DNA of 64,000 nucleotides from Vreelandella songnenensis (GTDB lineage Bacteria > Pseudomonadota > Gammaproteobacteria > Pseudomonadales > Halomonadaceae): NCBI RefSeq assembly GCF_003002925.1, contig NZ_PVTK01000003.1:1-64000 (forward strand). The letters run 5' to 3'. The position numbers and the translations under genes are program-made. Positions 32,972-40,764 of the stretch are shown here, one piece after another (within the stretch, counting starts at the first letter, position 1; each line of letters starts with the position of its first letter). The notes beneath the pieces were generated by a model. That model was not told where the DNA came from, made no database searches, and was given only the letters and a program-made list of their open reading frames with translations.

Positions 32972-34354
32972 TTAAGCCAAGACTTTACCGCGATTCAGCA
33001 GGCCGTGGGGATCGAGTGCCTGTTTGAGCGTCTGCATCAGCTCGATTTCAGCGCTGGTGCGGCAGGCGCCTAGCCAGGCGCGCTTTTCAAGCCCGATACC
33101 GTGTTCTGCTGATACGGACCCGCCCAAGGCTTGAAGCGGTTCATACACCAGCGCTTCGACGGCCCGGCGAACCTCAGGGTCATGACTGCCAACACTGATG
33201 GAGACGTGCAGATTACCATCGCCCAGATGGCCAAAGATGACTAACCGTCCGTCCGGCCAACGCTGTAGCAGCTGCGTTTCCAGGGTCTCTGTGTAGCGCT
33301 GCATATCGACGATCGGCAGGCTGATATCAAAGGTCAGCTTCGGCGCCAGCCCTTTGATGAGCCCTTCGATATCTTCACGGATAGCCCAAAGGCCAGCACG
33401 CTGAGTGGCCGATTGGGCAATCACGGCATCGACGATCAGTTCGCGCTCCAGCGCCTGCTCCAGCGCCTCACTAAACTGTGCCTCCAGGCGGGCTTCATCA
33501 CTGCCTAATCCTTCGATGATCACGTAAAACGGGTATTCGGTCGAAATCGGCGGCGTGTGGCGGCCCAGCGTTTCGGTAAGCAGCCGGTAATGGCTCTGCC
33601 ACATGACCTCAAAGGCACCGAGGCTGCCGCCCAGCATTTTACCCATATGACCGAGCAGCTCGGTCAGCGCCTCAAACGACGGGCAGGCGACCAATGCGGT
33701 TTGTTCGATGGGCATGGGAGGCTGCAACCGCAGCACGGCGCGGGTGACAATACCCAAGGTACCTTCGCTGCCGATAAACAGCTGTTTCAAGTCGAACCCG
33801 GCGTTGTTCTTGAGCATGCGGTTCATCGAGCTTACCACGCGGCCATCGGCCATCACGGCTTCTAGCCCCAACACCTGCTGGCGCATCATGCCGTAGCGAA
33901 TCACCCGCACGCCGCCTGCATTGGTGGCGATATTTCCACCGATCGTGCAGCTACCGCGTGCGCCAAGGTCCAACGGAAACTGCAGACCGGCCTCACTGGC
34001 CGCTTCCTGTACCCGTTGCAGCGGTGCGCCCGCCTGTACCGTCAGCGTGCCGCCGACGCGGTCTATCTCTTCAATGGCGGTCATGCGCTCAAGGGAGATC
34101 ACCAGTTCATCGGGCGTGGTTTCAGCGCCGTGCACCAGGCCAGTTAGCCCTCCGTGAGTAACGACAGGCTGCTTGACCTCAAAGCAGGCACGCATAACGG
34201 CTGAAAGCTGGTCGGTATCGGCGGGGCGAACAATGGCACCGGCGTGGCAAGGCGCGCCGGTTACCCAGTCTTCCTGGCGGCTGATCACATCATCGCCGGT
34301 GAGCACATGGGCAGCGCCCACAATATTGCGCAGTGTATCTAGACTTATTTGCAC
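32972..34354 (-). CDS. FAD-binding 2-hydroxyacid dehydrogenase (GlcD/D2HGDH-like)
   Basis: This is a VAO/PCMH-fold flavoprotein of 460 residues. The FAD half has THGGLTGLVHGAE and LGARGSCTIGGNIATNAGG, and the catalytic half has the metal motif GHLGDGNLHVS and SAEHGIGLEKR. These are the marks of the D-2-hydroxyglutarate/D-lactate dehydrogenase group; D-2-hydroxyglutarate is a plausible substrate but cannot be fixed from sequence. It runs in the same direction as the HisC-like gene, 28 bases upstream of it. An L-2-hydroxyglutarate oxidase is present at 60263 in the same window. The cassette array begins about 600 bases upstream of its start. Confidence 0.85.
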   Translation of the reverse strand: MQISLDTLRNIVGAAHVLTGDDVISRQEDWVTGAPCHAGAIVRPADTDQLSAVMRACFEVKQPVVTHGGLTGLVHGAETTPDELVISLERMTAIEEIDRVGGTLTVQAGAPLQRVQEAASEAGLQFPLDLGARGSCTIGGNIATNAGGVRVIRYGMMRQQVLGLEAVMADGRVVSSMNRMLKNNAGFDLKQLFIGSEGTLGIVTRAVLRLQPPMPIEQTALVACPSFEALTELLGHMGKMLGGSLGAFEVMWQSHYRLLTETLGRHTPPISTEYPFYVIIEGLGSDEARLEAQFSEALEQALERELIVDAVIAQSATQRAGLWAIREDIEGLIKGLAPKLTFDISLPIVDMQRYTETLETQLLQRWPDGRLVIFGHLGDGNLHVSISVGSHDPEVRRAVEALVYEPLQALGGSVSAEHGIGLEKRAWLGACRTSAEIELMQTLKQALDPHGLLNRGKVLA

Positions 34355-34502: not shown

Positions 34503-34667
34503 ATGAATCTGCCATGGCTCACCCAAGATGCCACGCCGCTGCACGTGCCTGCCGAGCCGTTTCCCTACCAACGCAGGCTTCGCAAACGTCTTGCCGGGCT
34601 GCCATCTGCACATCCATTGCGTGACTACCTAACGCTTTTGTTGGAAAAACAGTGGGGGAGGGGGTAA
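34503..34667 (+). CDS. Possible small or remnant ORF of 54 codons
   Basis: An ATG at 34503 opens 54 codons ending at TAA 34665-34667. The peptide begins MNLPWLTQDATPLHVPAEPF and is Arg/Leu/Pro-rich. Its base composition is like the core genome, not like the AT-rich cassette that follows. I do not recognise it. There is no clear ribosome site. It may be a real small protein, or the end of a core gene cut by whatever brought the cassette array. Confidence 0.25.
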   Translation: MNLPWLTQDATPLHVPAEPFPYQRRLRKRLAGLPSAHPLRDYLTLLLEKQWGRG

Positions 34668-34900
34668 AACAGCAGTAGTTTGGTGGGGCGATGGTGTGTG
34701 AGGCTAGTGTAATTGCCTGTCTATGTGCCGCGAGGCCCACACTATTTTGCCCTTCAACCGCCTGCGCATTGCCGGACGATGTGGATGCGCCAGTATGATT
34801 GAAACCGGAAAAACGCGCAGGTACGCGAATTTTAGATATGTAGCCAAATCTTGCTTTGCTCACAATAGAAGCAATGGGGTAGAGTCCAATGAGCTGGCTA

Positions 34901-34942
34901 CATAACCTCAATGAATGAGCGGGCACGTTTATTGAGGTTATG
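34901..34942. repeat. 12-bp perfect inverted repeat at the left edge of the cassette array
   Basis: CATAACCTCAAT (34901-34912) and ATTGAGGTTATG (34931-34942) are exact reverse complements separated by 18 bases. The ends TAAC and GTTATGC look like the R'' and R' boxes of an integron attC or attI site, but the element is shorter than known attC sites and each box departs from consensus. The right arm overlaps the -35 of the predicted promoter of the first cassette gene, so an operator is the other reading. Confidence 0.6.
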
Positions 34943-34958
34943 CAGCCTTCCGTATAAT
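34932..34958 (+). promoter_or_regulatory. Candidate promoter of the first cassette gene
   Basis: A consensus TATAAT is at 34953-34958, 28 bases before the GTG start, with TTGAGG at 34932-34937 as a -35 (15-base spacer, shorter than ideal). The -35 lies in the right arm of the inverted repeat. This could drive the whole array, acting like the cassette promoter of an integron. Confidence 0.45.
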
Positions 34959-34986
34959 CACTGTTATATTTCTTAAGGAAGCACCG

Positions 34987-36123
34987 GTGGCAAATTACAT
35001 TAAGCAAAACAAAAATGATGTCAATGGTTGGTTTGATGCTGTAGTCAATAACGGTATTCTTTTTCTGAACTCTTCAGTTAGTAATCTATCTACATCTCCC
35101 AAGAGTTCTCTTATTGACCTTTACACTGCAATAGAGCTTTTTTTTAAAGCAAGATTAATGAAAGAGCACTGGTCACTTATCATTTCAAAACCAGAGTCAG
35201 CAGTTAAGCAAAAATTCGAAAATGGTGACTTCCACTCAGTTTACCTAGAGCAAGCTCACACTCGTTTGAAAAACATCTGTGGTGACAAAATTAAAAAAGA
35301 AGCTATGGATAATTTTAAAGCTTTGGGTGAGCATCGGAATCAAATCGTTCACTTTGCTCATACTGGGTTTGCAGGTAAAGAAACAGAGGTGGTGATTGAA
35401 CATTGGGTATCATGGTTTCATTTACACGAACTGCTAACTAATAACTGGTCAGAAATATTTGAAAGTTATCAAGAGTCGATAGAAAAAATAAATGTAAAGG
35501 TTAAATTAAACCATGACTTTCTCAAAGCCAAGTTTGATTTGATTCAAGGAAAAATTGAGATAGAAAATAAAGCAGGGAATCATATCGTCGATTGTACATC
35601 ATGCGGATTAGCGTCAGCTAAAGTGCTTAAATCACATAGCTGGGGTGGAGAAGATATCGAGTGCCTAGTCTGTGATGTGAAAGATTTAAAGTTGAAGGCA
35701 ATCGAAACTTCAATACCATGCTCAAACTGCAATAAAGAAGTTAAGTACTTTATGGTTAAGGATCATAAATGTACCGAGTGCCAGACAGAGTTAACGTCTG
35801 AATATGCGCTGGATAAATATACTGAAATATATCAAGAGCAAGATCCTGAAGCTCGCTATGATGATGGATCTGAACCATTAGCTTATTGCCACAACTGTCA
35901 GCTTGAAGAGCCAACAGTATTAAATCTAGAAGGAATGTGGGTTTGTGTCGAATGTGAGGATCGTGGCTGGTCTACACTAGACTGTGAAAATTGTGGTAGC
36001 TTCGTCACAGGAGATGTTCAGGCTATTCAATACTTTGCTTGTCATCGCTGCGAGGATGATGTCAGGAAACTGCATGAAGAAGAAATGAAAAAATATAGAG
36101 CTGAAGTAGAAGACGAAATATAA
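34987..36123 (+). CDS. Cassette 1: HEPN-motif protein with four zinc ribbons
   Basis: The 378-residue product is not a family I can name. An all-helical N-terminal half (about residues 1-190) contains RNQIVH at 117-122, which fits the Rx4-6H catalytic motif of HEPN domains, ribonucleases common in toxin-antitoxin, abortive infection and CRISPR-linked proteins. The C-terminal half has four evenly spaced zinc ribbons, each two CxxC pairs: C203/C206 with C226/C229, C245/C248 with C262/C265, C301/C304 with C320/C323, and C333/C336 with C352/C355. A charged helix ends the protein. The start is a GTG with AAGGA 8 bases upstream. The gene is AT-rich compared with its surroundings. The stop codon TAA forms part of the R'' box of the following attC. 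HEPN and zinc ribbon calls rest on motif reading. Confidence 0.75.
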   Translation: MANYIKQNKNDVNGWFDAVVNNGILFLNSSVSNLSTSPKSSLIDLYTAIELFFKARLMKEHWSLIISKPESAVKQKFENGDFHSVYLEQAHTRLKNICGDKIKKEAMDNFKALGEHRNQIVHFAHTGFAGKETEVVIEHWVSWFHLHELLTNNWSEIFESYQESIEKINVKVKLNHDFLKAKFDLIQGKIEIENKAGNHIVDCTSCGLASAKVLKSHSWGGEDIECLVCDVKDLKLKAIETSIPCSNCNKEVKYFMVKDHKCTECQTELTSEYALDKYTEIYQEQDPEARYDDGSEPLAYCHNCQLEEPTVLNLEGMWVCVECEDRGWSTLDCENCGSFVTGDVQAIQYFACHRCEDDVRKLHEEEMKKYRAEVEDEI

Positions 36124-36218
36124 CAAGCACTTTAAGTCGGATCAAAAACAGTTGGTTTTGTTTCGCTTCGCTATACAGCAAAACCAACAATTTTTGTCCG
36201 CTTAAGTGGACGTTAGGC
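36118..36218 (+). repeat. attC site 1
   Basis: R'' is ATATAAC (36118-36124) and R' is GTTAGGC (36212-36218). The outer arms TAACAAGCACTTTAAG and CTTAAGTGGACGTTA pair with the unpaired bases typical of attC. The inner arms GTTGGTTTTG (36151-36160) and CAAAACCAAC (36179-36188) are perfect complements. Length is 101 bases. Confidence 0.92.
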
Positions 36219-36224
36219 ACTGCA

Positions 36225-36923
36225 ATGAGCGATGACATGGAACATGAGTCTGTAGATTTCTTTGGAAACGGGTTATGTACTCATTGCCATCTCGCGCGGC
36301 GGGAATTAGAAGAGTTTAGGTTCTTTAACGAAGCCAGCGAATCGGCATGGGGAGATAGAGATAAGCAGCTCCAGGAGCACTTGAATTCAATTCTTACCAA
36401 GTATCCAAAATCAAGCCACGATGAGATTGTCGAGAGTTACGGCTGGGACCTTCACGTGAACCAAGTAAAGTATCCGAGCATCCATCGTCAGTCGATCATT
36501 TTGACAATATTCAGCTTCCTTGAGCATGAGTTAAATAGCCTGTGCAATATCCTGTCTGAGTCCGTGAAAAACTCGGTATTGCTCAGGGATTTAAACGGTC
36601 AAGGCGTGGAAAGAGCCCTGCTTTTTCTTAGAAAGATCGCCGCTTTCGAGCTTTCTGCAATGAGTAGTGAGGTTGCCTACATTCGAGGCGTAAACTCGGT
36701 TAGAAATCAAATAGTCCATAACGGAAGTACCCTTCCGCAGAATGGGGAACACAAAGTCAACTTATTTGTAGGATCGCAGTTGCATTTAGCTGGTGAGCCA
36801 GGAAGATCTCTCCTTGTGCGAGAGGAGTTCGTGCCGGAAATGATCGTAACTCTGATGGGCTTCTTTGAAAAGCTAGATGAGCAAGTGCAAACTCATATTC
36901 AGGCGTACAGCAGCGATGCCTAA
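36225..36923 (+). CDS. Cassette 2: HEPN-motif protein of unknown function
   Basis: The 232-residue product is unnamed. Residues 160-165 read RNQIVH, the same hexapeptide as in cassette 1 and again a fit to the HEPN Rx4-6H motif, set in a helical context (IILTIFSFLEHELNSLCNIL before it). An N-terminal CTHCH motif (18-22) might bind metal. The protein is otherwise unlike cassette 1 and has no zinc ribbons. The ATG at 36225 lies 6 bases after the attC boundary, with a second ATG at 36237; no clear ribosome site is seen, as is common in cassettes. The stop overlaps the R'' box of the next attC. Confidence 0.7.
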   Translation: MSDDMEHESVDFFGNGLCTHCHLARRELEEFRFFNEASESAWGDRDKQLQEHLNSILTKYPKSSHDEIVESYGWDLHVNQVKYPSIHRQSIILTIFSFLEHELNSLCNILSESVKNSVLLRDLNGQGVERALLFLRKIAAFELSAMSSEVAYIRGVNSVRNQIVHNGSTLPQNGEHKVNLFVGSQLHLAGEPGRSLLVREEFVPEMIVTLMGFFEKLDEQVQTHIQAYSSDA

Positions 36924-36995
36924 CCAAGCAATCAAGTTCGCTCTTTGCGGTCGCCGGACGCTCGTTCCTCGCGCCACTTATTGCGGGCGTTAAGT
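36918..36995 (+). repeat. attC site 2
   Basis: R'' is GCCTAAC (36918-36924) and R' is GTTAAGT (36989-36995), both full matches to RYYYAAC and GTTRRRY. The 78-base site has an imperfect inverted arrangement with GGTCGCCGG near its centre. It contains the stop codon of cassette 2. Confidence 0.85.
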
Positions 36996-37011
36996 GCCTA
37001 GGGAGGCATTG

Positions 37012-38487
37012 TTGAAATTTTCAGATTGGCGTGCATATCAAAACGAAGTGGCCGCTTTCTTTAGAAGGCAAGGCTGCAACGCCGAAGTGGAAAAAATAGT
37101 ACAAGGTGTACGAGCAAAGCATGAAGTTGATGTGCATGTGAAATTTCGTCGTTCGGGTATTGAATGCACCTGGGTCGTTGAATGCAAGCTTTGGAAAACT
37201 AAAGTGCCTAAAGAAAAGGTTATGGCGCTAAAATCAATCGTGGATGATGTGGGTGCGGACCGAGGAATTATTGTTAGTGAAAAAGGATTTCAATCTGGAG
37301 CGCTAGATGCCGTCCGAGATACAAATATCACTCTCGTCACATCAATAGAAGAATTTGAGAGAACTGCATCAACCAATTCCAGCGAAGAGCAGCTTATCTA
37401 TTCTGATAGCGGAAATGGTATGGCGATCTATAAGTTCCCAGATGACTCAAAGCCCCAACACTTATTGAAATATGGAGATTTTATAGTTTCAGCTAATTGG
37501 GGAAGCGTAACAATATCAATCGTAGACCCAAAAAAACGAACGATAGTTAGAACTGTCGAACTGGATAGATATGAATCAAAATCTCCAATAACCGGTGAGC
37601 GTGTGATTCGAAAACATCCACCTGGAGCTATGGCCATAGCTGAAGGAAGGCTTTTTGTTGGACAAGTATTCTCGGACTTTCTGCTTGTTATTGACATTGA
37701 AACTCATTCTATTGTAAAGCGCATTTATCTCCCCGGAGGCGGAGAGGGACAAATAGCTGTATCTCCTGATGAAAAGACTATCTATTTTGCAAGCAATAAA
37801 GAAAACCAGTTTTATATAATAGATAGTGCTACGTATAAATTTGAGTCTATTAATTATCCATCAGGAGGGCGTGGCTGCATGTCCTTATGTGCAGATCCTG
37901 GCGGAAGGATTATATATATTGGGATACAGCGTGGAGGGAAGCTAAATGGAGTGTCCTATTTTGGCGGGAATTGCTTTGTGGCTGTCTATGATCTTTCTCG
38001 GAAAGAATATTTGAAAACTTTATACCTTGCAGAGATCAATAATGGGCGCTCAGATGATGCAACTCCTGCTTGTATAGAGATCGATTCAAAAGATCAAAAA
38101 ATATACATAGGTATGTTTCAGTCAATGCGAGGGGTTTGCGTTGTCGACTCCAATTCTTATGAGATTTTCGCCGACATTAGATTTCAAAAAGGCGACCATA
38201 ATAAACACTTCAATTGGGTAGATCCATTGTCTGTAAAAATTTATGAAAACTACCTCCTGTCATTGAATAGAAACAATTGCGAACTAGCAGTGCTAGACAA
38301 AACGTCTCTCGAAGTTATTGAGACATTTTATCTAGGAGAGGCGCCAAATGGCCCACGAGACCTCGAAATTATTAGCGATGAGGTGATTATCAGCTACCCC
38401 GAACGAAATGGCCTAATCATATTGGATATCGAAGCAACGTCACTTAACAAATCAATGCAACCGACCGCTAACGCGGCGGCTGATTGA
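37012..38487 (+). CDS. Cassette 3: Mrr-type nuclease fused to a YVTN-like beta-propeller
   Basis: The 491-residue product begins with a domain like the Mrr restriction endonuclease catalytic fold: EVAAFFRRQGCNAEVEK, then HEVDVHVKF and WVVECKLWK. Asp40 and Glu57-x-Lys59 give a PD-(D/E)XK active site, and DRGIIVSEKGFQSGALDAV is the usual following segment. From about residue 145 to 480 come repeated beta blades such as LFVGQVFSDFLLVIDIETHS, IAVSPDEKTIYFASNKENQF and DLEIISDEVIISYPERNGLI, a YVTN/WD-type propeller. I start at the TTG at 37012 because GGGAGG lies 5 bases upstream; a GTG at 36994 inside the attC is the alternative. The last 14 codons and the stop are encoded inside the next attC. 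The gene is AT-rich. I know of no named system with this fusion. Confidence 0.78.
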   Translation: MKFSDWRAYQNEVAAFFRRQGCNAEVEKIVQGVRAKHEVDVHVKFRRSGIECTWVVECKLWKTKVPKEKVMALKSIVDDVGADRGIIVSEKGFQSGALDAVRDTNITLVTSIEEFERTASTNSSEEQLIYSDSGNGMAIYKFPDDSKPQHLLKYGDFIVSANWGSVTISIVDPKKRTIVRTVELDRYESKSPITGERVIRKHPPGAMAIAEGRLFVGQVFSDFLLVIDIETHSIVKRIYLPGGGEGQIAVSPDEKTIYFASNKENQFYIIDSATYKFESINYPSGGRGCMSLCADPGGRIIYIGIQRGGKLNGVSYFGGNCFVAVYDLSRKEYLKTLYLAEINNGRSDDATPACIEIDSKDQKIYIGMFQSMRGVCVVDSNSYEIFADIRFQKGDHNKHFNWVDPLSVKIYENYLLSLNRNNCELAVLDKTSLEVIETFYLGEAPNGPRDLEIISDEVIISYPERNGLIILDIEATSLNKSMQPTANAAAD

Positions 38488-38497
38488 AGCGTTAGAC
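38442..38497 (+). repeat. attC site 3
   Basis: R'' is ACTTAAC (38442-38448) and R' is GTTAGAC (38491-38497), both full consensus. The 56-base site has a short central loop, pairing CCGACCGC with GCGGCGG and TCAAT with ATTGA, like the compact attC sites of Xanthomonas and Pseudomonas integrons. It encodes the C-terminal tail (SMQPTANAAAD) of cassette 3. Confidence 0.92.
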
Positions 38498-38518
38498 ATA
38501 CGTAAGGAAGAAAGAGGA

Positions 38519-38914
38519 ATGGGGAAATACGGAAAGGCCGCTGTTCGGGCTCAGGAGCTTTTGACAGCGGATATAACTGCGGAACCTGCCTCAGCCTGGA
38601 AGAGGGCTGTAAAAGAAGTCTTTCCGAATAGCCCCTCATCCCGGGAGAAAAGCTGTCCTCGCGGTGCATTCTTGGACCTTTGCTCTGACGGTTTAGTTTT
38701 AGGGGTATCATCAGGGAAGTACACACGATCGAAAGATAATCGTCGCTATGCTCGCGAAGCTGTAAAGCTTCTCCTGAAGGTACCTACGTTGGCCGACAAA
38801 CCAGATGAGCTCTGGAGAGAAATCATGCCAGGGGAGGCGAAGACGGAGAATTCGCAGATGGATGTTACTATTTCGCTATGGCAAGCCGGTGTCATTAGCA
38901 AGAGCGATGTCTAA
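38519..38914 (+). CDS. Cassette 4: small conserved-type protein of unknown function
   Basis: The 131-residue product, starting MGKYGKAAVRAQELL, looks like a single helical domain with a central CPRGAFLDLCSDGLVLGV segment whose Cys, Gly and hydrophobic spacing suggest a conserved core. I recall similar cassette-borne proteins (possibly the group labelled DUF6979) but cannot confirm it. There is no signal peptide or membrane segment, so it should be cytoplasmic. An AGGA ribosome site lies about 10 bases before the ATG. The stop overlaps the R'' box of the next attC. Confidence 0.65.
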   Translation: MGKYGKAAVRAQELLTADITAEPASAWKRAVKEVFPNSPSSREKSCPRGAFLDLCSDGLVLGVSSGKYTRSKDNRRYAREAVKLLLKVPTLADKPDELWREIMPGEAKTENSQMDVTISLWQAGVISKSDV

Positions 38915-38992
38915 CAAGTCGCTCAAGTTCGTTTCAGCCTTCGACCTCCGCCTGACGCGGTAGAGGCTCGCCGCTTAGCTCAGACGTTATAG
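38909..38992 (+). repeat. attC site 4
   Basis: R'' is GTCTAAC (38909-38915, full match) and R' is GTTATAG (38986-38992, two departures from GTTRRRY). The 84-base site has the pairing halves GCTCAAG/CTTAGC typical of attC. Placement between two compact genes supports it. Confidence 0.75.
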
Positions 38993-39002
38993 CGAATCCC
39001 AC

Positions 39003-39434
39003 ATGAAACTCCTCATACTAACGATGACTCTATTGCTATCAGGCTGCGTTGTTTATCCCATCAACAAAACGCTTCAGCCGGAGGCCGAAATCCTCGTCAC
39101 CGACGCGGAAGGAAAGCCCCTTCAGGGTGCTTGGGTGACTTTGATATCTAGCTCCTACCCGTATGGCTTTGAACAGATGAGAACGGGTGATCAAACCAAT
39201 GATAGAGGCGAGGCGAGCTTTCAAAGCATTAAGGAGTGGCGCACTGAATCGTTAATGCTTCACGGCTCAAACGTATTTTTCTGGAATTGGTGCGTAGTAA
39301 AACCAGCTTTTGAAACACACACGACCATGTGGAGTAGTGATCAAGATTTTCAGCCCCAATACAACGTCATTCTTACGCCAGGGGAAAGCACGCCATGCCC
39401 AGAAGAGATGAATAAAATCGACCGCAGGCTATAA
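39003..39434 (+). CDS. Cassette 5: putative lipoprotein with Ig-like/carboxypeptidase regulatory-like domain
   Basis: The 143-residue product has a lipoprotein signal peptide (MKLLILTMTLLLSGC, lipobox LLSGC) and a beta-type domain beginning AEILVTDAEGKPLQGAWVTL, the pattern of CarboxypepD_reg-like folds, with TNDRGEASF in the second part. It should sit in the envelope, facing the periplasm or surface. Function is unknown. Lipoproteins and exported proteins are common cargo of cassettes. The ATG lies 10 bases after the attC 4 boundary, and its stop overlaps attC 5. Confidence 0.7.
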   Translation: MKLLILTMTLLLSGCVVYPINKTLQPEAEILVTDAEGKPLQGAWVTLISSSYPYGFEQMRTGDQTNDRGEASFQSIKEWRTESLMLHGSNVFFWNWCVVKPAFETHTTMWSSDQDFQPQYNVILTPGESTPCPEEMNKIDRRL

Positions 39435-39527
39435 CAAGCACATGTTGCCGGGCTGATTTTAGCTGAGTTCCGGGCTGGCCATCTATGCGGGTCATAAATG
39501 CGCGGGCAGGGCATTCAACGGTTAGAT
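39429..39527 (+). repeat. attC site 5
   Basis: R'' is CTATAAC (39429-39435) and R' is GTTAGAT (39521-39527, full match). The arms ATGTTGCC and GGGCATTCAACG pair only partly, so this is the least regular of the five. Its length (99 bases) and its position directly after cassette 5 fit an attC site. Confidence 0.65.
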
Positions 39528-39602: not shown

Positions 39603-40019
39603 ATGAAAAAGTGGTTATTCATAGTGCTTGCTACGCTGTCGCTGTCCGCCGTGGCTGACGACGAAGCGCTTGATTGCAATAACGTAAGGAACACGCTCGA
39701 TACCAATCGGTGCGCGGCTATCGAGCTGGAGGCCGCCGAGGAGGTACTCGCCCACTATCTGGAAACGAGCGTTGAACATAACGCGGCTGACCCTGAATTA
39801 GTCGATGCTATTCAGGTGGCTCAAACGCAGTGGGAGGCGTATGCCGCTGCCCATTGCGGCGCTGTCTATACGCAGTGGCGCGACGGGACCATTCGAGGCG
39901 TCATGGGCATTACGTGCAGTACACGGTTAACGAAACAGCGAACGCACGACGTCTGGCAAGATTTCCTGACCTATATGGACAGTACGCCGCCGGTGTTACC
40001 GGAACCCGCCATCGAGTAA
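39603..40019 (+). CDS. LprI-like (DUF1311) exported protein
   Basis: The 138-residue product has a signal peptide (MKKWLFIVLATLSLSAVADD) and then the LprI/DUF1311 pattern of paired cysteines: DCNNVRNTLDTNRCA, with further Cys in AAHCGAVY and ITCSTRL. LprI of mycobacteria inhibits lysozyme, and relatives are periplasmic; that role is not shown here. The ATG at 39603 follows GGAGAA; the open frame reaches back into attC 5. GC content is closer to the core genome than in cassettes 1 and 3. It may be the last cassette, although no convincing attC follows (only GTAACG/CGTTAT around 40017-40035), or the first resident gene after the array. Confidence 0.72.
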   Translation: MKKWLFIVLATLSLSAVADDEALDCNNVRNTLDTNRCAAIELEAAEEVLAHYLETSVEHNAADPELVDAIQVAQTQWEAYAAAHCGAVYTQWRDGTIRGVMGITCSTRLTKQRTHDVWQDFLTYMDSTPPVLPEPAIE

Positions 40020-40110: not shown

Positions 40111-40764
40111 ATGCAGACGTTGAGAATTGACCTGGTGTCCGATGTTGCCTGCCCGTGGTGCGCGATCGGCTACCGGCGTTTGGAACAAGCGCTGGAAACC
40201 CTGAAAGGCGAAATCGATGTGGAACTCCACTGGCAGCCTTTTGAACTCAACCGCGACATGCCGCCCGAGGGCGAGCCGATCCTTGAGCACCTGTGCCAAA
40301 AATACGGCAAGGATGCGGCCACCATGGAACAGTCCCAGCGCGAGATCATGAAGGTTGCCGAAGAGCTTGGTCTGAATTTCCGTGGTGCCGTTGAACGTCG
40401 AGCGAACAACACCTTCGCGGCCCACCGGGTGCTTGCCTGGGCTGCCACGCAGAACCGAGAGACGGCTCTACAACTGGCCCTGTTCGATGCCTACTTCGGT
40501 GAGGCGAAAAACCCGTCAGATCCACAGGTGCTACGCGAGAAGGCGATTGAGGCGGGGCTTGACGGCGATACCGCCGAGGCCATCGCCCGCTCTGATCAGT
40601 ACGCGGACGAGGTTCGCGCGGCTGAGCAGAAATTCATGGAGGCGGGGGTGAGCGCCGTGCCGGGGTTCATCCTCGACGGCCGCTACCTGATTTCCGGCGC
40701 CCAGCCCGCCGAGGTGCTGGTCGATGCGCTTCGTCAGGTGGCGGAAGAAAACGCTAATCGCTAA
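40111..40764 (+). CDS. DsbA family oxidoreductase, FrnE-like
   Basis: The 217-residue product has the 2-hydroxychromene isomerase/FrnE pattern: VSDVACPWCAIGYRRLEQAL with the CPWC redox motif near the N-terminus, an inserted helical domain, and the cis-Pro loop GVSAVPGFILDGRYLISGAQ. There is no signal peptide, so it acts in the cytoplasm, as FrnE does. FrnE-type proteins help against oxidative stress in some bacteria; here the role is an inference. It converges with the glycerol dehydrogenase gene. Confidence 0.92.
   Translation: MQTLRIDLVSDVACPWCAIGYRRLEQALETLKGEIDVELHWQPFELNRDMPPEGEPILEHLCQKYGKDAATMEQSQREIMKVAEELGLNFRGAVERRANNTFAAHRVLAWAATQNRETALQLALFDAYFGEAKNPSDPQVLREKAIEAGLDGDTAEAIARSDQYADEVRAAEQKFMEAGVSAVPGFILDGRYLISGAQPAEVLVDALRQVAEENANR

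Follow-up and report, generated by a model that had tools for sequence, protein, structure and literature searches.

An integrase-less cassette array in Vreelandella songnenensis begins at its own attI site and is probably one station of a distributed integron

The locus lies in a window of 64,000 nucleotides (contig NZ_PVTK01000003.1, positions 1 to 64,000), and consists of five plus-strand genes preceded by an attI site and followed by conserved flank genes. The initial annotation had placed an integron cassette array in a Halomonas-like chromosome here, and the relatives are indeed Halomonas and Vreelandella. It had overlooked the attI at 34854-34966 and, at ~34506-34699, what is left of a DUF7281 gene. 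The features are as follows.

32972..34354, minus strand: FAD-linked oxidase gene, left flank (PF02913/PF01565)
~34506-34699, plus strand: remains of the DUF7281 gene, 3' end (tblastn 78% over residues 223-273 and 77% over 273-285)
34854-34966, plus strand: attI, crossover 34963/34964 (junction signature, DNA match in relatives, and 134 bits with model R3, a score that is not independent as the window copy and L008 are among the 28 rows of the model)
34896-34915 and 34928-34947: arms of the attI palindrome, 20 bases with 2 mismatches (fold z -4.6)
34953..34958, plus strand: TATAAT, candidate -10 box of a cassette promoter, from its conservation across attI copies
34964..36212, plus strand: cassette 1, HEC-08-like / DUF3644 gene at 34987-36123 (PADLOC HEC-08, E 8e-69) and attC 1
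36118-36219, plus strand: attC 1 (R1 E 2.2e-6)
36213..36989, plus strand: cassette 2, HEPN-like gene at 36225-36923 (weak RTasHEPN match, E 0.0015) and attC 2; junction 7/7
36918-36996, plus strand: attC 2 (R1 E 0.0092)
36990..38491, plus strand: cassette 3, Mrr-type nuclease and beta-propeller gene (PF04471 51 bits, propeller matches; ORF 36994-38487, true start probably slightly further in) and attC 3; junction 7/7
38442-38498, plus strand: attC 3 (R1 E 2.5e-7)
38492..38986, plus strand: cassette 4, DUF6979 gene at 38519-38914 (PF22399 151 bits) and attC 4; junction 7/7
38909-38993, plus strand: attC 4 (R1 E 0.057)
38987..39490 (right end approximate), plus strand: cassette 5, locked, lipoprotein-like gene at 39003-39434 and decayed attC from ~39429
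39604..40019, plus strand: LprI-like gene, conserved right flank (PF07007; beside DsbA again in relatives)
40111..40764, plus strand: DsbA/FrnE-like gene, conserved right flank (PF01323; positions in relatives)

The attC sites were searched with two covariance models, R1 built from 19 sites, all of other genomes, and R2 from 52 sites to which this genome contributed none. The seed sites of R1 were chosen for matched arms; its covariation is partly by construction and carries no weight. On both strands of the window and up to E = 10, R1 gave four matches only (E 2.5e-7 to 0.057), each of them within the array and on the strand of its genes, and R2 found the identical four sites and nothing else. 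The bottom-strand DNA of attC 1 and attC 3 folds far better than shuffles (z -6.2 and -3.9), that of attC 2 and attC 4 no better (z 0.2 and 0.8). An attC-like site behind each of the five genes had been proposed; the genes lie as described, and sites 1-4 were borne out by R1 and R2. The fifth site is a decayed attC, which neither model matched and which does not fold (z +1.4 against shuffles). Its left half is attC-like and its right half degraded in a form common to relatives, so that the R' box first assigned there is probably due to chance. A manual scan for R'' and R' boxes picked up no more than one true window site, together with a false one, and was replaced by the covariance model; an early alignment of 23 attC candidates was discarded because of misplaced right arms. 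An Rfam scan of the window gave tRNA only. Clusters of attC sites without an integron integrase are called CALINs, and the array, which has two or more attC sites and no intI close by, belongs in this class.

All five genes are cassettes, for which the junction signature is evidence independent of the attC models. In five of five window cassettes the cassette begins with seven bases that are exactly complementary to its own R'' box (7/7), the start GTTATAT of cassette 1 pairing with ATATAAC, and the R'' of the decayed cassette 5 still pairing with its cassette start. Together with the significant attC matches, this supports the reading as an integron cassette array. The signature was also compared across 57 loci, of which the shuffle test left out 17 where the junction was not GTTA or R'' not TAAC. 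In the 40 scoreable loci 110 of 120 variable positions match and 34 loci are complete, as compared to a mean of 45 and a maximum of 62 matching positions in 2000 shuffles. On minus-strand loci the attC start was set at the first TAAC. For the 25 loci on the plus strand the attC starts are exact, and here 70/75 positions match against a shuffled maximum of 45. The first cassettes at attI copies are joined at the attI crossover and read away from the attI. The cassette ORF scan comprised 149 ORFs, i.e. the 157 listed minus nine, plus window gene 3, and with window gene 1 extended.

The array begins at its own attI, homologous to the module that is linked to intI elsewhere, with the crossover at the junction, between CACTG and TTA. 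Its conserved DNA extends leftward to ~34800. In L084 and L146 an intact intI is followed by the same module and then by cassette 1, and in L178, which belongs to another genus, the module stands beside a full intI. TATAAT is exact in 34 of 67 attI copies and has at most one mismatch in 54, and a -35/-10 consensus scan at the window attI found no promoter and no -35 box. The palindrome at 34.9 kb was also considered as an attC, and rejected because it is an attI feature common to the copies, and as a terminator, likewise rejected, the sole scan match in 34700-35100 lying elsewhere and on the minus strand. Plasmids, phages and viral contigs searched with the attI gave no match.

In the relatives whose surroundings were compared, the flanks were in common and genes 1-4 were not, and the array genes were not seen in a conserved order. 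The lipoprotein-like gene of cassette 5 is seen again at this address in relatives. The DUF7281 gene is in relatives the final gene of a condensin-like operon, and in several of them the FAD-linked oxidase gene is 14-15 kb away from the attI.

Sequence similar to the window attI was found by DNA match in 69/82 genomes of the genus. Searches with RNA models in 19 genomes gave at least 67 attI copies in 18 of them, at least four in this genome; these counts are minima, as at most 150 candidates were scored per genome (18 in one search) and, for instance, the 40-bit window site at 36118 is missing from one genome-search list. The 67 copies remained of 102 rows once one duplicated place and the matches to the other strand of an already counted palindrome had been removed. 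Many are common to a few chromosomal addresses, including thiC/tenA, the condensin-like operon and cobalamin genes, and several addresses with different cassettes occur per genome. The nearest attI is one at the same address in 33/43 cases against a shuffled maximum of 21, with address 1 taken as 14 copies, among them L146 (which has intI and lacks a thiC/tenA neighbour) but not L105. In 12/13 pairs of copies at shared addresses, the left flank is conserved and the cassettes differ.

Same-strand attC sites lie downstream of 57/67 attI copies, and the attI loci contain 132 attC matches, every one of them on the attI strand and downstream of the attI, an arrangement that holds 33% of the strand-bases there (a share computed without the window). 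In ten complete genomes a search blind to attI listed at least 108 attC sites, 54 of them downstream of an attI, on its strand and no more than 10 kb away, and none in the other three strand and side arrangements at that distance. The other 54 are away from any attI match; with half of the listed sites so placed, entry by other routes also happens. Furthermore, 61/63 attI copies of complete genomes are co-directional with replication. Orientation and strand counts are not independent, since copies at one address are inherited together. Some copies may be dead or false, as 10/67 have no attC match downstream and 14/67 lack the CTGTTA-like end.

No intI is visible near the array, as had been noted, and no IntI over the cut-off was found in the whole genome, nor in 54 of the 69 attI-positive genomes, many of them drafts. 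An intI or its remains stands directly upstream of 11/67 attI copies. IntI scraps occur in this genome only beside a sister attI at C3:336 kb. The intI at thiC/tenA in this genome is reduced to N-terminal scraps, and since no IntI over the cut-off is present the window array is probably frozen now.

It appears from these sequence comparisons, with a probability of about 0.8, that the window array is one station of a distributed integron, where an integrase produced elsewhere would act in trans on many attI sites. The initial annotation had left it between mobilisation by an integrase elsewhere and loss of its own. Its statement that no integrase is adjacent holds. An ordinary CALIN formed by local loss, where a complete integron of intI, attI and cassettes once stood at this address, would agree with the common decay of intI at the thiC/tenA address and with intI loss as a CALIN origin named in the available text of PMC8618304. 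However, a DUF7281 gene or its remains, not intI, is directly upstream of the attI in 12/12 loci examined at this address, and the 2.6 kb upstream in these 12 loci yielded no intI. Trans service therefore fits better, and we regard local loss as unlikely, although an intI may have gone before the genus radiated.

Insertion off target, at a chance secondary site of the attG type where the array then grew, is very improbable. Such entry may occur in the genus, given the attC sites away from attI, but what precedes cassette 1 is a 113-base module common to intI-linked attI sites and not a short chance site. The notion least to be credited is that the palindromic module is a dispersed repeat or a promoter unrelated to integrons. 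It is multicopy and palindromic, as such a repeat would be, but this is contradicted by its agreement in strand and side with attC, by the junction signature and by its place between intI and cassette 1.

For Vreelandella/Halomonas as a whole, a distributed integron seems likely, in which an integrase locus feeds several attI sites at fixed addresses, several cassettes could be first and be expressed simultaneously, and the sites outlive the integrase gene. That each attI has a promoter-like box, often with a covarying hairpin, is part of this proposal. The integrase, ancestrally encoded by the intI-attI locus next to thiC/tenA, would be produced elsewhere in the cell and would recombine attC with attI at any attI address, so inserting circular cassettes, and the candidate promoter in each attI may express the newest cassette. 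In the window the attI stands before four cassettes whose attC is recognisable and a fifth that is old and locked; with intI reduced to scraps in this genome, the array is probably frozen.

The usual picture of an integron is a single platform with a single attI, and arrays without an integrase are seen as relics or strays. Here, integrase-less arrays have their own conserved attI sites, spread over the chromosome and repeatedly used. If true, distributed attI sites would explain why some integrase-less arrays occupy conserved loci, and one cell would gain several first positions for cassettes. The attI copies are also a natural set of variants for asking what the integrase requires in attI.

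Of the parts of a complete integron, the window has the attI at the head and the attC cassettes, and lacks intI beside the array. It resembles a sedentary chromosomal integron (intI, attI, Pc and array) in attI, attC, cassette order and orientation along replication, the last being the rule according to the available text of PMC11023631, and differs in having several attI addresses per genome, most without an adjacent intI. As in a CALIN, an attC array stands without a nearby intI, but a conserved attI precedes it, at an address that recurs across the genus. Similar in arrangement are the Xanthomonas CALINs, which PMC12444791, as far as its accessible text goes, places at seven conserved loci, with the intI of that genus at one fixed locus; integrase-less arrays at conserved positions are found in both, and by that description they are set apart by the attI, shown here and not reported there. 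The attG sites (Loot et al. 2024, cited in PMC11023631) are described in accessible parts of PMC12444791 as widely scattered sites that are neither attC nor attI. Insertion at attG also brings cassettes in away from the intI locus, whereas the site used here is a long conserved attI.

The junctions give the strongest evidence that the five genes on the plus strand at 34987-39434 of the window form a cassette array. Insertion of a circular cassette leaves at its start the portion of R' that is complementary to the R'' box of the same cassette, and each cassette here begins with the exact reverse complement of its R'' box (7 bases):

Cassette starts and R'' boxes in the window
Cassette 1: start GTTATAT, R'' box ATATAAC
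Cassette 2: start GTTAGGC, R'' box GCCTAAC
Cassette 3: start GTTAAGT, R'' box ACTTAAC
Cassette 4: start GTTAGAC, R'' box GTCTAAC
Cassette 5: start GTTATAG, R'' box CTATAAC, exact although attC 5 is otherwise decayed

The pairing places the first crossover at 34963/34964. Across 40 attI loci, 110 of 120 variable positions match the same signature, the shuffled maximum being 62. The initial annotation had an attC-like palindrome after every one of the five genes, and this held for the first four: a covariance model trained on 19 sites, all from other genomes, found attC sites at the ends of genes 1-4 and no further match on either strand of the window up to E = 10, and a second model (52 sites, none from the V. 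songnenensis genome) agrees. The fifth site, however, is attC-like only in its left half, the right half being degraded, a form common to relatives. Folded as bottom-strand DNA, sites 1 and 3 are strong, and sites 2 and 4 are no better than shuffles.

The DNA to the left of the crossover is conserved, with matches to 34800-34990 in 69 of 82 same-genus genomes, and in the 30 copies retrieved first and at locus L008 the similarity stops at or next to CACTGTTA, with unrelated DNA beyond. A sister copy in the same genome, at 336 kb of contig C3, heads four attC matches of its own and adjoins what is left of an integron integrase, two scraps that cover residues 1-34 and 31-64. At L084 and L146 the module sits between an intact intI and cassettes, and at L178, in another genus, a full intI adjoins a module of the same layout. 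Because of this conservation up to the crossover and the position beside intI, we conclude from sequence comparison that the module heading cassette 1 (34854-34966) is an attI site. It consists of a palindrome followed by TATAAT and CACTGTTA. The arms of the palindrome vary among many copies yet remain complementary (examples are ATAACCTCAATGAAC, ATAACCTGAATGAAC and ATAACACCAATAAAC, all paired with their complements, as are CTCGATAACAATGATGAACGTG and CGCTCGTTTATTGACTTGAACG in other genera). The median hairpin score was 10 for attI copies and 5 for control windows; 30 of 73 copies exceeded the control maximum, but 28 stayed at or below the controls' 95th percentile; not every copy, then, has the palindrome. 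TATAAT is at a constant place in 34 of 67 copies, and in 54 when one mismatch is accepted; a search of the window yielded no -35/-10 pair.

In a sample of V. songnenensis and 18 single-contig genomes, the attI model had matches in at least 18 of the 19, and after retrieval there were at least 67 sense-strand copies, four of them in V. songnenensis. A CTGTTA-like core ends 53 of the 67. Directly upstream, 11 have intI or parts of it; a DUF7281 gene or its remains lies within 300 bp of 12, and 1.2 kb from one more; 43 have neither. By their upstream genes, the copies fall at recurring chromosomal addresses:

attI addresses, from upstream genes
thiC/tenA (address 1): 14 genomes, including L105, whose copy is weak and lacks the core
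Condensin-like operon (apparently address 2): 12 genomes, 13 counting the distant copy
Cobalamin genes: 9 genomes
DUF1451 gene and an unnamed 437-aa gene: 5 genomes
GNAT gene: 3 genomes

For 33 of 43 copies the closest attI shares the address, and for one of 43 it is in the same genome: most addresses are passed on by descent, although addresses 1 and 2 have seen some exchange. In six of 14 address-1 copies a LexA-type CTG-N10-CAG is found 188-189 bp to the left of the crossover; among the remaining copies, two of 12 and five of 41 have looser matches, at different distances. Weak attI matches beside thiC/tenA in three genomes (L105:2501, L126:2501, L137:2501) have a common end, CTCATTTAAACCTATA or close to it, without CACTGTTA. 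At least 55 of 201 genomes from the family have an attI match, 45 in this genus and 10 in other genera; among the matches listed, nine of these 10 have one and the tenth two. In the named genome collection, 18 stretches match the end of the attI exactly, every one of them under the title Halomonas or Vreelandella, and there were no attI matches among plasmids, phages and viral contigs.

The attI sites have evidently been used, as judged from the DNA around them. Among the matches listed in attI loci, 132 of 132 attC sites lie downstream on the attI strand, an arrangement that covers 33% of the strand-bases. Such an attC follows 57 of 67 attI copies, at no more than 2.5 kb in 52 of them; in some cases the same attC counts for more than one copy. 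A search blind to attI listed at least 108 attC sites in 10 complete genomes; 54 of these 108 follow an attI on the same strand at a distance of at most 10 kb, and none is within 10 kb upstream or on the opposite strand. The other 54 have no attI in that range; some of them are next to a diverged second intI, and it is possible that they mark other entry sites. This second intI, carried by some genomes (L151-L155), is a second integron lineage; its full integrases share 49-75% identity with the L084 integrase, attC sites lie nearby, and any attI match there is weak. Loci where attC sites lack a convincing upstream attI match include L184-L199 and one place in V. songnenensis (L101, 98 kb of contig C2). 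In 13 same-address pairs, 12-100% of the left 1500 bp aligns at 75-96% identity, whereas over the 3.5 kb on the right 12 pairs have no match and the remaining pair matches across 18%. With dnaA as origin and the terminus assumed opposite, 61 of 63 attI copies from 17 complete genomes point the way replication runs, the two others being neighbours in one genome, G028. At L078, in G067, a tyrosine-recombinase gene and then an IS91-family transposase gene lie on the reverse strand directly past the crossover; related DNA occurs at four other loci (L195, L066, L045, L178).

The array had been described as lacking intI, and no IntI over the cut-off was found anywhere in the V. songnenensis genome. 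Among same-genus genomes 19 of 82 have one. Of the 69 attI-positive genomes, 15 have one and 54, some of them drafts, do not; action of an integrase in trans on the attI sites is thus an inference, and one about the past. The window array is probably frozen as long as no integrase comes in.

The window attI belongs to the condensin address. An FAD-oxidase gene on the left and a DsbA gene on the right flank an attI in G001, G028, G033, G055 and G059, among others. Relatives have a condensin-like operon (DUF3584 SMC, MksE, a 410-aa protein, DUF7281), with weak similarity to JetD, directly against attI, and in the window only the end of its last gene (DUF7281) is left. The operon (SMC, MksE, DUF7281) was observed just before attI at L072, L077, L083, L085, L090, L107, L110, L115, L125, L136 and L140, with a full reading in some. 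Its link to attI may be functional or a chance of position. Relatives also have the lipoprotein, LprI and DsbA genes here. A synteny comparison agreed with the initial reading of an acquired array: the flanks are common in relatives, and genes 1-4 had no match outside the V. songnenensis genome in 1.4 Mb of compared sequence. Genes 1-4 therefore look like later arrivals and the recurring lipoprotein cassette is locked.

Gene 1 is HEC-08-like, and the product of gene 3 (36994-38487), which combines an Mrr-type nuclease with a YncE-like beta-propeller, may be a defence effector. Among 149 cassette ORFs compared with PADLOC and Pfam (raw counts), GajA-, AriA-, TIR-, SIR2-, AbiLi- and antitoxin-type families have 2-3 members each, GNAT was found in four and DUF2971 in five.

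The excerpts from a limited literature search held no report of one integrase serving several attI sites, which is thin ground for calling such an arrangement new. Excerpts of PMC8618304 give three origins for CALINs, namely off-target insertion, loss of intI and rearrangement, and one CALIN is listed for Halomonas sulfidaeris in excerpts of PMC10295459. In Xanthomonas, according to excerpts of PMC12444791, CALINs occupy seven conserved loci, contrasted with scattered attG insertions. The co-directional orientation of the attI sites agrees with the orientation rule as excerpted from PMC11023631.
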